The translations under genes were made by a program, and so were the position numbers. Below, piece after piece: positions 1,416 to 5,686 of a stretch of DNA of 60,308 bases; the stretch's first letter is position 1; every line of letters starts with the position of its first letter. The DNA is from Methylophaga sp. (lineage in GTDB: Bacteria; Pseudomonadota; Gammaproteobacteria; Nitrosococcales; Methylophagaceae): assembly GCA_002696735.1 (NCBI GenBank), contig NZSL01000012.1:80718-141025 (forward strand), read 5' to 3'. The notes beneath the pieces are model-generated. The model was given only the letters and a program-made list of their open reading frames with translations. It was not told where the DNA came from and did no database searches.

Positions 1416-2300
1416 ATGAACACTATTAATCCAATAGAATCCAAGCTTGCAATCCTTAGTCTGTTATTTGCTGCCACAATGTGGGGCATTATCTGGTATC
1501 CGATGCGCCTGTTCGAACAGGCTGGCATGTCGGTGGTCTGGGTGACGTTGATTATGTACCTCACAGCAGGCATCGCCAGTCTGCCGATTTTTATCAAAAA
1601 CCGTTATCGCTGGAAACATATTCCTGCCGATCTGCTTTGGCTGGCCCTGGCGGCAGGTATGACCAATCTTGCTTTTTTAGTCGCGTTGAATGAAGGTCAG
1701 GTAATGCGGGTGATGTTGTTGTTTTACTTATCGCCGTTATGGTCTGTGATATTAGGTCGCTGGTGGCTAGGTGAAAAGTTGTCTCTGGCAGCCATTATTA
1801 TGTTTGTGCTGGCGATGGGGGGCACGGTCTTAATGTTATGGCGACCCGAAGTGGGATTTCCATGGCCACATGGGCTAGCAGATTGGCTGGCCTTGTTTGC
1901 CAGTCTGTGTTTTGCGGTGAACAATGTGTTGAGTCGAAAGCTGGCGGCAGTGCCAATGGCTTTAAAAACTACCATCATTTTATGGGGAGTGGTCGCGGTA
2001 TCAATAGTCGTTTTGCTATTACAGCAGGCTTCCTTACCCTCAGTGGGTCTATCTGTATGGCTAAGTGCTGTTTTGGTGGGGGGCGGAATTATCATCGCCA
2101 TGACAATGACCGTTCTATATGGACTTGCCAGAATGCCGGTTTATCTGGCAGCAGTTATCATGTTGTTTGAATTGATTGTTGCCGCGATTTCCTCAGCTTT
2201 ACTCACTACAGAAATGATGACCGTTCAGGAATGGCTGGGTGGGGCATTTATTTTTGTTGCTGCATTCGGAATTGCTCAGGTAGAAAAAGCCAATCGCTAA
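1416..2300 (+). CDS. EamA/DMT-family permease
   Basis: A 294-residue inner-membrane protein of about ten hydrophobic helices, made of two EamA repeats (roughly residues 10-143 and 155-288). This is the usual drug/metabolite transporter size. FAATMWGIIWYPMR near the first helix and the GEKLSLAAIIMFVLAMGG stretch at the end of repeat one are typical of the family. The substrate cannot be told from sequence; relatives export amino acids, nucleobases or metabolites. It is divergent from dapC, so an amino-acid efflux role is possible but unsupported. No strong ribosome site is visible before the ATG. Confidence 0.85.
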   Translation: MNTINPIESKLAILSLLFAATMWGIIWYPMRLFEQAGMSVVWVTLIMYLTAGIASLPIFIKNRYRWKHIPADLLWLALAAGMTNLAFLVALNEGQVMRVMLLFYLSPLWSVILGRWWLGEKLSLAAIIMFVLAMGGTVLMLWRPEVGFPWPHGLADWLALFASLCFAVNNVLSRKLAAVPMALKTTIILWGVVAVSIVVLLLQQASLPSVGLSVWLSAVLVGGGIIIAMTMTVLYGLARMPVYLAAVIMLFELIVAAISSALLTTEMMTVQEWLGGAFIFVAAFGIAQVEKANR

Positions 2301-2503
2301 GCCTGCGGCCAATTTATTTTGATTAACCACTTTGTTTCACCCTTTCAGTCTTGGACTGTTTTCCGCGCTATTGTGTTGGAAATGACTTATGTAGAATGGT
2401 TACACCACGCCAATAGGCCTGGTTGAAAGAAACGACTCTGCTCAGAGGAGACTCTAAAAGAGCAATAGCCCTTGGTTTTTATTTTAATTTGCAGGAATTG
2501 TTT

Positions 2504-2890
2504 ATGATTAAGTCTATAGCGCATGCCAGTTTTCTGGTGGCTGATTTAGCTACGTCGCTGAAGTTTTACTGTGATGTCTTGCAAATCCCTCTCAATTCGA
2601 ATCGCCCTAAATTTGCCTATGACGGCGCATGGCTGGATTTGGATAACAAACAACAATTACATTTGATGGTATTACCCAATCCTGACTCGACAGATGGTCG
2701 TCCGGAACATGGAGGGCGGGATCGTCATGTCGCATTGCTTGTCGAAGATCTTGAGGCACTTGCCGAACGGCTGGAACAGGCAGGTGTAGAATTTTCACGC
2801 AGCAAGTCCGGTCGGGCTGCTTTTTTCTGCCGTGATCCAGATGGAAATGCACTGGAATTTGCAGAAGATTTTACTCCGCCCGTTAAGTAA
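2504..2890 (+). CDS. VOC-superfamily (glyoxalase/bleomycin-resistance fold) protein
   Basis: A 128-residue protein of one vicinal-oxygen-chelate domain: a SIAHASFLVADLATSLKFY start, LDLDNKQQLHLMVLP in the middle and DPDGNALEFAE near the end. This is the standard paired beta-alpha-beta-beta-beta layout. Candidate metal ligands are His7 and the final Glu of LEFAE, which glyoxalase-like members use. The substrate is unknown. The ORF is open 27 codons further upstream, but the ATG at 2504 has a GCAGGAA ribosome site and begins the domain directly. It stands alone between the EamA gene and the repeat-rich gap. Confidence 0.82.
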   Translation: MIKSIAHASFLVADLATSLKFYCDVLQIPLNSNRPKFAYDGAWLDLDNKQQLHLMVLPNPDSTDGRPEHGGRDRHVALLVEDLEALAERLEQAGVEFSRSKSGRAAFFCRDPDGNALEFAEDFTPPVK

Positions 2891-2911
2891 CTCAGGCATT
2901 TAAAAGAAACA

Positions 2912-3145
2912 ATCAATGGCTTAGCGACTTACTCACAATTTCTGTGGATAAGTCTGTGTGTAACAATGGTGAAAAACGCTAAGTCGTTAATCTATAAAAG
3001 TGCTGTTCAAAATGGTTAAAATTTAACCAGTTGCAAAAAATAAATAAAATCAAATGGTTATGTAACAATTTTGTATATTCAACAACTTAGCAAAACTTGT
3101 TGTAACAGCACTGTAACAATTTAGGAAAAAGTGAATAACTTACTG
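2912..3145. repeat. DnaA-box direct repeat, copy 1 (about 235 bp)
   Basis: This is the first of two diverged copies; copy 2 begins 399 bp downstream. The first 47 bp (2912-2958) are identical to 3311-3357, and similarity continues with gaps to GTGAATAACTTACT. Elements in order: CTTAGCGACTTACTCAC, a perfect DnaA box, CGCTAAGTCGTTA (inverse of the first element), the palindrome TGGTTAAAATTTAACCA at 3013-3029, ACTTAGCAAAACTTGTTG, CACTGTAACAAT, and a near-DnaA box at 3130-3138. It is AT-rich with no supportable ORF. I cannot assign a function; a DnaA-binding or replication-control site is the leading idea. Confidence 0.85.
2943..2951 (-). promoter_or_regulatory. Perfect DnaA box in repeat copy 1
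   Basis: TGTGGATAA on the plus strand is TTATCCACA on the minus strand, the strict DnaA box consensus. A second, weaker box (AGTGAATAA, 3130-3138) sits in the same orientation at the right end of the copy. Confidence 0.7.
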
Positions 3146-3310
3146 CGATTGGCAGCATTAAAAATCAAAGATTGTGCCATAAAATTTATTTTTGCTTTTC
3201 ACACAGCTAACTTTAAATCATCCTGCTATTTGATTCTTTCAGTGTTTAATATTTGAAATATTCATTTTTGTTGTTGTAATAGCCTGCTAGTCAATTAGTT
3301 AAAAGTGATG

Positions 3311-3545
3311 ATCAATGGCTTAGCGACTTACTCACAATTTCTGTGGATAAGTCTGTGGTTAACATTGTTGAAAATCGCTAAGTCATTATTCTTTAACAGA
3401 GCTGCACTAAATGGTTAAAAAATAACCATATTTAAAATTCATTTAAAATCAATAACATATGGTTGTTTTGTGTACATTCAATGACTTAGCAAAGTATGTT
3501 GTAAGAGCACTGTAACAATCCATCGGAAAGTGCATAACTTACTAT
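3311..3545. repeat. DnaA-box direct repeat, copy 2 (about 235 bp)
   Basis: The second copy keeps the same order of elements as copy 1. The DnaA box lies at 3342-3350, CGCTAAGTCATTA follows, and the palindrome has drifted to TGGTTAAAAAATAACCA at 3412-3428, so its arms are kept while the centre changed. Then come ACTTAGCAAAGTATGTTG, CACTGTAACAAT and AGTGCATAA (3529-3537). Survival of the arms, the DnaA box and the end motifs amid drift suggests selection on these parts (inference). It ends 15 bp short of the ttcA stop codon. Between the copies (3146-3310) I see only AT-rich sequence and a small AATATTTGAAATATT palindrome. Confidence 0.85.
3342..3350 (-). promoter_or_regulatory. Perfect DnaA box in repeat copy 2
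   Basis: TGTGGATAA (TTATCCACA on the minus strand), inside the 47-bp block identical to copy 1 and exactly 399 bp from the first box. A partner near-consensus box is at 3529-3537. Confidence 0.7.
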
Positions 3546-3560
3546 GCTGGTATTAAGAAA

Positions 3561-4427
3561 TTACACTCGTGCTAATGCAGGAATGATCTGCTCATCAAAG
3601 GCCGAATCTTCATCACCTGTTGGTTCGAGGCGAAATTGCTCAAGTCCCTTAAAATCAAATAATTGCTGATCTGCCAATTGTGAGGGGGCCACATTCTGGA
3701 TGCTACGGAAAATATTCTCAACACGACCGGGATGCTGTTTCTCCCAGGTTTGCAGCATTTCCTTAATCACCTGACGTTGCAGATTTTCCTGAGAGCCACA
3801 TAAATTACATGGAATGATTGGGAAGGCTCTCGCTTCAGCATAGCGGGTGATATCCGACTCTTTGGCATAACAGAGTGGTCGGATAACAATATTGGTTTTA
3901 TCATCACTCAGCAGTTTGGGCGGCATGGCTTTGGTCTTGCCGCCATAAAACATATTTAAAAAAAGCGTTTCAATAATATCGTCACGATGATGGCCTAAGG
4001 CGATTTTTGTGATGCCATGCTGACGCGCATAACCGTATAACGATCCACGACGTAGTCTCGAACAAATACCACAGGTGGTTTTGCCTTCAGGAACCACTTC
4101 CTTAACAATGCTGTAGGTATCTTTTTCGATAATATGAAATGGCACGCCGATTTTACTGAGATATTCTGGCAATACATGCTCTGGAAATCCGGGTTGCTTT
4201 TGATCAAGATTGACCGCAATCAACTCAAAATCAATTGGTGCGTGATCGCGTAAATTCAGCAAAATATCGAGCATGGTGTAGCTGTCTTTACCACCTGACA
4301 GGCATACCATGACTTTATCGCCATCCTGAATCATGTCGTAATCAGCAATTGCCTGGCCGACCTGGCGGCGTAGCCGTTTATGTAATTTGTTGAATTCGTG
4401 TTGTTGTTTCAATTGATTTTCAGACAT
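3561..4427 (-). CDS. ttcA: tRNA 2-thiocytidine(32) synthetase TtcA
   Basis: A 288-residue cytosolic PP-loop ATPase that thiolates cytidine 32 of certain tRNAs with the help of an iron-sulfur cluster. Seen: the ATP-binding [10 protein letters not shown] motif near residue 45, the [13 protein letters not shown] pair of cysteines and a later CNLCGSQ cysteine pair, all hallmarks of TtcA. Length agrees with the family (about 300). Its ATG overlaps the moeA stop by one base (TAATG), so translation is probably coupled to moeA. The link to molybdenum cofactor genes looks positional; both use sulfur chemistry. Confidence 0.95.
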
Positions 4428-5686
4428 TAGATCAGACCTGCGAAGGGTTGCACGGTGACAGATTGACCGGCAGCTACACCGTCACAATCTTCATCCAGTA
4501 AAATAAAACAGTTGGCATGACTCATGGAATGCAGAATGCCGGAGCCTTGTTCGCCGGTCATCGTAACTTCCAATTGATTGGCAGAATTGCTGCGTAATAA
4601 TCCCCGTTGAAATTCGAACCGCCCAGGGCGCTTACGAATATTCTCAGCTGCAATCGCCTGTAATACCATTGGCGCGTGATAAATGGCACCCGCCAACTTG
4701 TGTAAAGCAGGTTGTACAAACTGATAGAAAGTTACCATCACCGAAACCGGATTACCGGGCAGACCGAAAAAATGAGCATCTGCAATTTTGCCGTAAGCAA
4801 GCGGCCTGCCGGGTTTCATTGCGATTTTCCAGAAATGCACTTCGCCGAGTTCATCCAGCAATTGCTTAACATAATCGGCTTCACCCACTGACACACCACC
4901 AGAGGTAATCACCACATCGGCTTCCTTGGCGGCCTGCAGCAAAGCTTCACGTAATGTGTCGGGATTATCGGTAACGACTCCCATATCGATGATCTCAGCA
5001 TCCAGACGTGTCAGCATGGCATACAAGGTATAACGGTTACTGTCATAAATATCGCCGGGGTTCAAAGTTTCGCCAAGCGAACGTAGTTCATCACCAGTAG
5101 AAAAAAATGCCACCCGAATTCGACGACGAACCTTTAGTTCTGCAAATCCCAATGACGCCAGTAAGCCTAAATCGGCTGAGGTAATTCGACGTCCTGCAGT
5201 AAGCACCACAGCGCCGGTCTGAATATCTTCTCCGGCGAGTCGCACATTTTCGCCGCTATGATGTTCTCCGTGCAGCGTTATCAGATCATTATTAACTTCA
5301 GCTTGTTCTTGCATGATGACCGTGTCACAACCCTTGGGCATCATTGCACCCGTCATGATTCTTACACATTCACCGGTATGAACGGTTTTGTCGAAAGGTT
5401 TGCCAGCAAAGGCACTGCCCACCCGTTTTAATGAGATTAATTGATGCTTCAAATCTTCGCCACGTACCGCATAACCATCCATTGCCGAATTAGCATGCGG
5501 AGGGACGGATAGCGGTGAAATCACATCTTCATGTAATACCTGTCCCAGCGCATCGCGCAATGCGACTTTTCGCCAGCAGCTGATTGCTGATATCTGCTGC
5601 AGAATTTTCTCTCTGGCGTCTTCCACTCTCAGAGTGTTAACGGGTTCAGGAGTGGCGCAGCTTGGTTGGGGCGTAAAGTCAGTCAT
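4427..5686 (-). CDS. moeA: Molybdopterin molybdenumtransferase MoeA
   Basis: A 419-residue cytosolic enzyme that inserts molybdate into adenylated molybdopterin to give active molybdenum cofactor. Domains in order: the MoeA N-terminal region with [15 protein letters not shown], the central MoCF-binding domain with [31 protein letters not shown] and [14 protein letters not shown], and the C-terminal domain IV. Family length is about 410. Its start overlaps the mobAB stop by 8 bp, and its stop overlaps ttcA. This gives a mobAB-moeA-ttcA operon in which the last cofactor-assembly steps are encoded together. Confidence 0.95.

Follow-up and report, generated by a model that had tools for sequence, protein, structure and literature searches.

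Locus and repeat structure

The stretch of DNA analysed (the window, 60,308 nucleotides) comes from a Methylophaga sp. genome of 3.3 Mb in 19 contigs, and its contig is not joined to the one that carries dnaA. Gene calls and repeat alignment confirm a 670 bp gene-free gap with two diverged direct repeats 399 bp apart, as an earlier sequence-only reading had described. The two copies align over 154 nt at 82% identity and over 76 nt at 80% identity, and positions 2912–2958 and 3311–3357, compared by reading, are identical over the opening 47 bp. The perfect DnaA box reported for this identical stretch is present in both copies (2943–2951 and 3342–3350, minus strand); it is not a lone box, as had been thought, but the middle one of three per unit, the other two having been missed. 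A one-mismatch box closes each unit at its right end (3130–3138 and 3529–3537), and the TGGTTA...TAACCA and ACTTAGC motifs noted earlier are both present in the units. An Rfam scan of positions 2200–4600, with E values up to 1, matched nothing. Single consensus DnaA boxes are about as frequent in the window as expected (7 observed, 8.1 expected); only their arrangement is exceptional.

The features of the gap are given below. The IHF consensus, WATCAANNNNTTR (ATCAA...TTA type), was drawn from PMC4585315 and PMC4245941, and the Fis consensus, GnnYAnnnnnTRnnC, from PMC4245941.

End at 2890, plus strand: glyoxalase/VOC-like gene, left neighbour of the gap
2891..3560: intergenic gap (670 bp) with the twin element; the flanking genes end toward each other
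2911..2923, plus strand: unit A, IHF consensus match AATCAATGGCTTA, 0 mismatches, directly upstream of box I
2929..2937, plus strand: unit A, DnaA box I TTACTCACA, 1 mismatch
2943..2951, minus strand: unit A, DnaA box II TTATCCACA, perfect, head-to-head with box I, 5 bp between
2955..2963, minus strand: unit A, DnaA box III TTACACACA, 1 mismatch, separated from box II by 3 bp
2977..2986: unit A, conserved arm CGCTAAGTCG, inverse of the GCTTAGCG/ACTTAGC motif, listed for its conservation
3014..3028: unit A, Fis consensus match GGTTAAAATTTAACC, 0 mismatches, the palindrome noted earlier
3048..3060, plus strand: unit A, second IHF consensus match AATCAAATGGTTA, 0 mismatches
3077..3089, plus strand: unit A, third IHF-like site ATTCAACAACTTA, 1 mismatch
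3130..3138, minus strand: unit A, near-consensus DnaA box IV TTATTCACT, 1 mismatch
3310..3322, plus strand: unit B, IHF-like site GATCAATGGCTTA, 1 mismatch
3328..3336, plus strand: unit B, DnaA box I TTACTCACA, 1 mismatch
3342..3350, minus strand: unit B, DnaA box II TTATCCACA, perfect
3354..3362, minus strand: unit B, DnaA box III TTAACCACA, 1 mismatch
3376..3385: unit B, conserved arm CGCTAAGTCA, listed for its conservation
3413..3427: unit B, Fis consensus match GGTTAAAAAATAACC, 0 mismatches
3447..3459, plus strand: unit B, second IHF-like site AATCAATAACATA, 1 mismatch
3476..3488, plus strand: unit B, third IHF-like site ATTCAATGACTTA, 1 mismatch
3529..3537, minus strand: unit B, near-consensus DnaA box IV TTATGCACT, 1 mismatch
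End at 3561, minus strand: ttcA, right neighbour of the gap (TtcA 491.7 bits against a cut-off of 272)

Core geometry

Each unit contains a core in which box I (plus) is followed after 5 bp by box II (minus) and after a further 3 bp by box III (minus), giving offsets of 0/14/26. The cores of the E. coli DnaA-reactivating sequences DARS1 and DARS2 have offsets 0/14/26 and orientations +/-/-, equal to those of both window units. Triads in which each box has at most one mismatch occur twice in the window and not at all in 20 first-order Markov random windows. A geometry scan of E. coli K-12 stretches, as opposed to the whole genome, returned two sites, in the bioD-uvrB and rppH-mutH gaps, in agreement with the published places of DARS1 in the uvrB promoter region and DARS2 in the mutH promoter (PMC5835720). 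DARS1 was also sought in the gaps around ybhK, a location rejected in favour of the bioD-uvrB site given by the scan. The DARS core is described as three uniquely arranged boxes with box I opposed to box II, on which bound DnaA meets head-to-head and loses ADP (PMC8682772). The two chromosomal E. coli DARSs were found among 52 similarly arranged box pairs (PMC5835720); these are pairs rather than triads, so that a pair alone makes no DARS and the arrangement may not suffice, which slightly lowers our confidence.

The E. coli-like family f184 provides a positive control for the core pattern. Among its 17 genomes, the exact core gave two matches in 11, one in 3 and none in 3, with a third core in 0/17; five of them contain a 30-mer that agrees letter for letter with E. 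coli DARS1 (four genomes) or DARS2 (one), as judged without the neighbouring genes. With two mismatches tolerated per box and no more than four overall, no triad was found in the oriC, dnaA or datA regions of E. coli, the place of datA being our assumption, or in the dnaA region of the Methylophaga genome itself. E. coli genomes searched with an 83-bp query gave no chromosomal match and only seven plasmid records. The layout, which the sequence-only reading could not name, is thus nameable: each unit has the three-box geometry of DARS1 and DARS2, accompanied by IHF and Fis consensus matches.

Predicted IHF and Fis sites

Counted from the first base of box I, both window units have a Fis match at +85, IHF matches at -18, +119 and +148, and box IV at +201; the accessory sites suspected beside the DnaA boxes are therefore represented by predicted sites at fixed offsets. 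Over 36 ttcA-locus units from the genus and family, the Fis consensus lies at +85 in 28, at +84 in one and elsewhere once, and over 21 units from a second locus beside clpA it lies at +85 in 17 and elsewhere three times, leaving five other occurrences off +85 across all 57 units. An exact match at +85 is absent from 8/36 ttcA-locus and 4/21 clpA-locus units. IHF matches with at most one mismatch are found at +119/120 in 31/36 ttcA-locus and 20/21 clpA-locus units, and at +148/149 in 30/36 and 18/21, respectively. The match at -18 is present in 33/36 ttcA-locus units and in 0/21 clpA-locus units, and its absence from all of the latter counts against the DARS reading.

In the identical scan, E. 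coli DARS2 shows a pair of one-mismatch IHF sites separated by 3 bp, with a Fis match lying beyond them, consistent with PMC4245941. The order of accessory sites is IHF-core-Fis-IHF-IHF in the window units versus core-IHF-Fis in DARS2, a second point against the DARS reading. Such IHF and Fis matches are degenerate motifs in AT-rich DNA and, alone, poor predictors of binding. The ACTTAGC motif shares bases with the TTR end of the IHF-type sites. A conserved arm, CGCTAAGT, follows the core (2977–2986 and 3376–3385) and is the inverse of the ACTTAGC motif up- and downstream; we know of no protein that fits it.

Conservation and selection

Conservation was expressed as mean pairwise identity among four twin-bearing genomes (G000, G021, G017, G001). 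The cores reach 0.95 (unit A) and 0.98 (unit B), the Fis sites 0.93 and 0.89, and box IV 1.00 and 0.88, respectively, compared with 0.53 for the inter-unit spacer and 0.63 for ttcA third codon positions. Values are lower elsewhere within the units, at 0.57 and 0.55 for the stretches after the Fis site, 0.73 and 0.77 for the second IHF site, and 0.74 for the third IHF site of unit B. Conservation of the boxes and Fis sites greatly exceeds that of the spacer and of the ttcA third codon positions, and shows them to be under selection. The suggestion that drift around conserved parts implies selection is hence borne out by measurement, and the DnaA boxes are kept between species, with cores in 24/24 genomes of the genus.

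Copies, synteny and unit number

BLAST within the source genome returned the window pair, a 96-bp match in the cobO-clpA gap, and a weak 32-bp match, which does not describe a scattered repeat family; a pattern search of the same genome found three cores. Across the genus, a search allowing up to two mismatches found one to five cores in each of the 24 genomes and none with the reversed control, although these genomes are related and the counts are not independent samples. A unit lies beside ttcA or the glyoxalase-like gene in 23/24 genus genomes, the synteny that the sequence-only reading had proposed to examine; the sole genome without such a unit (G011) is 68% complete. A clpA-side unit is confirmed by its flanks in 19/24 genomes, the flanks of the remaining genomes' second loci lying outside the comparison, and is twin in two (G012, G019).

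The ttcA-side unit is twin in five genus genomes (G000, G001, G007, G017, G021), and G020, with cores at the ends of two contigs, may be a sixth. The other 18 of the 23, G020 and its contig breaks included, show one unit at this locus, and the twin state is therefore not required. Seven further family genomes with a ttcA-side locus were examined, one of which is twin (G030). The units of G000, G007, G017 and G021 fall into two groups in a FastTree phylogeny, one of A copies (support 0.88) and one of B copies (0.92); several other nodes of the tree are poorly supported. Thus, the doubling predates those four genomes and both copies have been kept. Unit spacing in five genomes is 399, 401, 388, 402 and 833 bp, and a helical-phase reading of the 399-bp distance was rejected because of this variation.

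Other arrangements were observed. Five genus genomes have a third locus with three cores ~184 bp apart (L076, L077, L080 and L082 at ~4000–4420; L081 at 3662–4063), whose box II or III sequences depart from the ttcA type; the next gene on one side in L076 encodes an ogt-type methyltransferase, the other genomes having been judged by eye. Another genome of the same family has six cores over ~17 kb (L078, G027:C16:10157-29910). A weaker core with two mismatches in box III lies at ~9057 of L003/L289 (G000:C1:75088), in a region that looks mobile-element-like by eye, with SSB-like and transposase-like ORFs.

Chromosomal position

Chromosome arms were set by dnaA, standing in for oriC, and dif in two single-contig relatives, G007 and G022; dif was not found in G010. 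The ttcA locus lies ~1.0 Mb (G007) and ~0.9 Mb (G022) from dnaA, in keeping with the earlier view of a conserved DnaA-box locus away from oriC. In G007 it is at 0.56 of the dnaA-dif arm, with the clpA locus at 0.75 of the opposite arm, and in G022 the corresponding values are 0.48 and 0.76. The E. coli elements also lie on opposite arms, DARS2 at 0.41 and DARS1 at 0.66 from oriC.

GC skew, sampled as 20 stretches of 8 kb per genome, switches sign near dnaA in both G007 and G022, rising from negative to positive values. No origin-type switch occurs at the ttcA locus of either genome, and no triad was found in the 30 dnaA loci examined. On the terminus side of G022 the values hover near zero. 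In G007 the skew turns from positive to negative between 2194 and 2351 kb, 200–360 kb beyond dif (1989 kb), as far as the coarse sampling can place it; this turn falls close to the clpA locus (2313 kb). Ten other genomes of the class were searched for dnaA, and the core positions, listed for eight, vary: G119 has cores ~1.0 Mb to either side of dnaA, and the core of G171, ~114 kb from dnaA, is the nearest seen among the genomes examined.

Distribution beyond the genus

The exact core is present in 180/369 sampled genomes of the Gammaproteobacteria, with a control count of 0 among the matches listed; it is absent from 189/369, which was counted against the DARS reading. A sample of the phylum yielded the exact core in 90/398 genomes, by hand count 67/137 within the class (own genome included) and 23/261 outside it, where 20 of the 23 core-bearing genomes belong to three families (f208, f212, f216). 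When the distance between boxes I and II was left free (0–30), 161/321 genomes matched; by hand count, 147 of the 150 matches listed have the E. coli spacing and three another, a tally in which a single place enters on both strands in each of G243 and G122.

A scan of a named collection covered at least 117 stretches with a pattern that fixed the ninth base of box I as A, which excludes E. coli-type DARS. Here 96/118 cores avoid ORFs of at least 100 aa, compared with 13.8% of random positions. The recurrent direct neighbours, as protein clusters named from one member each, are PriA (23 loci), HemW (10), TolQ/ExbB-like (9), XseA (8) and citrate synthase (6), and uvrB is near the core in two named loci, both Aeromonas. 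A tblastn search of the 117 named core loci with E. coli proteins found dnaA in one, rsmG in one and mnmG in none.

The gaps beside priA, hemW/gltA and xseA/tolQ recur (L117–L227); with uvrB, mutH and ogt added, many neighbours are DNA replication or repair genes, which may reflect chance or regulation. Six tandem cores lie between members of the TolQ/ExbB-like and XseA clusters in Undibacterium sp. TS12 (L161:1197-2060), and four cores lie in tandem in an Alcaligenaceae MAG (L162:2477-3404). The core of a MAG titled Candidatus Planktophila lacus (L129) has hemW as its neighbour, and the stretch also carries gltA; Woeseiaceae loci share this arrangement, and the contig may therefore be misbinned. 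Twelve conjugative plasmid records, including NC_022650.1:21117-21150, carry a 30–34 bp core stretch at 91–93% identity that is unannotated there; ColE1 offers a precedent for a DARS on a plasmid.

DARS conservation has been described for gamma-proteobacteria related to E. coli (PMC4245941) and for E. coli-proximal beta- or gamma-proteobacteria (PMC5742627), and a Vibrio RctB site has been likened to DARS (PMC3937223). No title among the literature matches listed concerned DARS outside E. coli relatives, and a literature search on DARS or DnaA in Methylophaga found none.

Interpretation and alternatives

The core geometry, the matches at fixed offsets, the evidence of selection, the place away from dnaA in two relatives and the presence of partner genes lead to the reading that the gap probably holds two tandem DARS of the IHF/Fis type. 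The partner genes are those for DnaA, Hda, Fis, IHF-alpha and IHF-beta, all encoded in the source genome, with Hda, Fis and both IHF subunits exceeding curated cut-offs. The orthologous neighbours uvrB and mutH were not found at either locus, which are flanked instead by glyoxalase-like/ttcA and cobO/clpA, and this counts against the DARS reading.

Any DnaA-box cluster is able to titrate, and DARS1, DARS2 and datA, with a total of 26 boxes, are held to account for much of the bound DnaA (PMC12371093), so the units might merely hold DnaA away from oriC without nucleotide exchange. This is unlikely, since titration gives no reason for a head-to-head 5-bp spacing kept in 147/150 of the matches listed, nor for Fis- and IHF-type matches at fixed offsets, and single boxes are not enriched in the window. 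An element of the datA type, likewise an intergenic set of DnaA boxes and IHF-type sites away from dnaA, is a very improbable identification: the triad was not found in the datA region of E. coli, datA is given five boxes and an IHF site, with no Fis site listed, in a figure legend (PMC4585315), and the window core matches DARS1 and DARS2 instead.

The placement of E. coli DARS1 and DARS2 in promoter regions (PMC5835720) raises the further idea of an operator through which DnaA regulates neighbouring genes. The genes flanking each of the two loci in the source genome are convergent, so that no promoter of a neighbour is expected in either gap, and the core adjoins unrelated genes elsewhere; an operator role is accordingly even less probable than a datA-type element. 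A secondary or relic replication origin, which the DnaA boxes and IHF-type site, set in AT-rich sequence, could bring to mind, is the least credible of these alternatives and was dropped on GC skew and gene neighbours. The skew switches near dnaA and not at the ttcA locus, ~1.0 and 0.9 Mb away (G007, G022), and dnaA, rsmG and mnmG are all but missing from the named core loci (1, 1 and 0 of 117). The sequence-only reading had likewise regarded oriC as unlikely.

As tandem DARS, the element would most likely regenerate ATP-DnaA under the control of IHF and Fis. ADP-DnaA would bind the three boxes of each unit, and the head-to-head pair of boxes I and II would bring two AAA+ domains into contact so that ADP is lost; the apo-DnaA would then leave, take up ATP and become competent again for initiation. 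Binding of IHF and Fis to the neighbouring consensus sites would bend the DNA and turn the element on in the proper growth phase and cell-cycle window, in the manner of E. coli DARS2. ADP release, its timing and the dependence on IHF and Fis are carried over from E. coli and presumed to apply here by analogy. The two units may provide a higher dose or form one larger cooperative assembly.

A broader proposal is offered tentatively, as a real possibility that we do not yet favour: DARS may be a widespread control element of the Gammaproteobacteria (Burkholderiales-type included) and of some other proteobacterial classes, situated in recurrent gaps, with the tandem number (1, 2, 3, 4 and 6 seen) an evolvable DnaA-recharging dose and the doubled unit kept in one Methylophaga branch, where each copy has its own lineage. 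If the DARS reading is right, a comparative study of DnaA recharging by DNA elements would become possible, and tandem units would provide natural variation in the dose of a cell-cycle regulator within a methylotroph genus. The spacing rule may serve as a search pattern, as its only matches in the 17 f184 genomes resemble DARS1 or DARS2.

Comparison with known systems

The E. coli datA locus resembles the window element as a non-coding DnaA-box cluster with IHF that modulates the nucleotide state of DnaA; it differs in having no triad in its region and, according to the papers, in an opposite effect on DnaA. The ColE1 plasmid DARS also has three DnaA boxes, two of which, correctly oriented, are essential (PMC5835720), but it is plasmid-borne and is likened here by description rather than by sequence. 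E. coli DARS1 shares the core geometry and an identical box II (TGTGGATAA) with the window units; unlike them, it is single, and the scan applied to it gave neither an IHF match (0–1 mismatch) nor an exact Fis match.

The right part of E. coli DARS2 (L083:1952-1986) shows, by eye, a perfect reverse box at 1966 and a degenerate forward box 14 bp upstream; this extra pair, 316 bp from the DARS2 core, is possibly a decayed second unit. DARS2 resembles the window units in its three-box core of identical orientation and spacing, in IHF and Fis consensus matches within ~160 bp, and in extra DnaA boxes beyond, and resembles the Methylophaga loci in its mid-arm place away from the origin. The window differs from it in site order, box sequences and neighbours, in its convergent gap and in its two complete tandem units. 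The DARS class is known; the twin layout, the site order and the breadth extend it.
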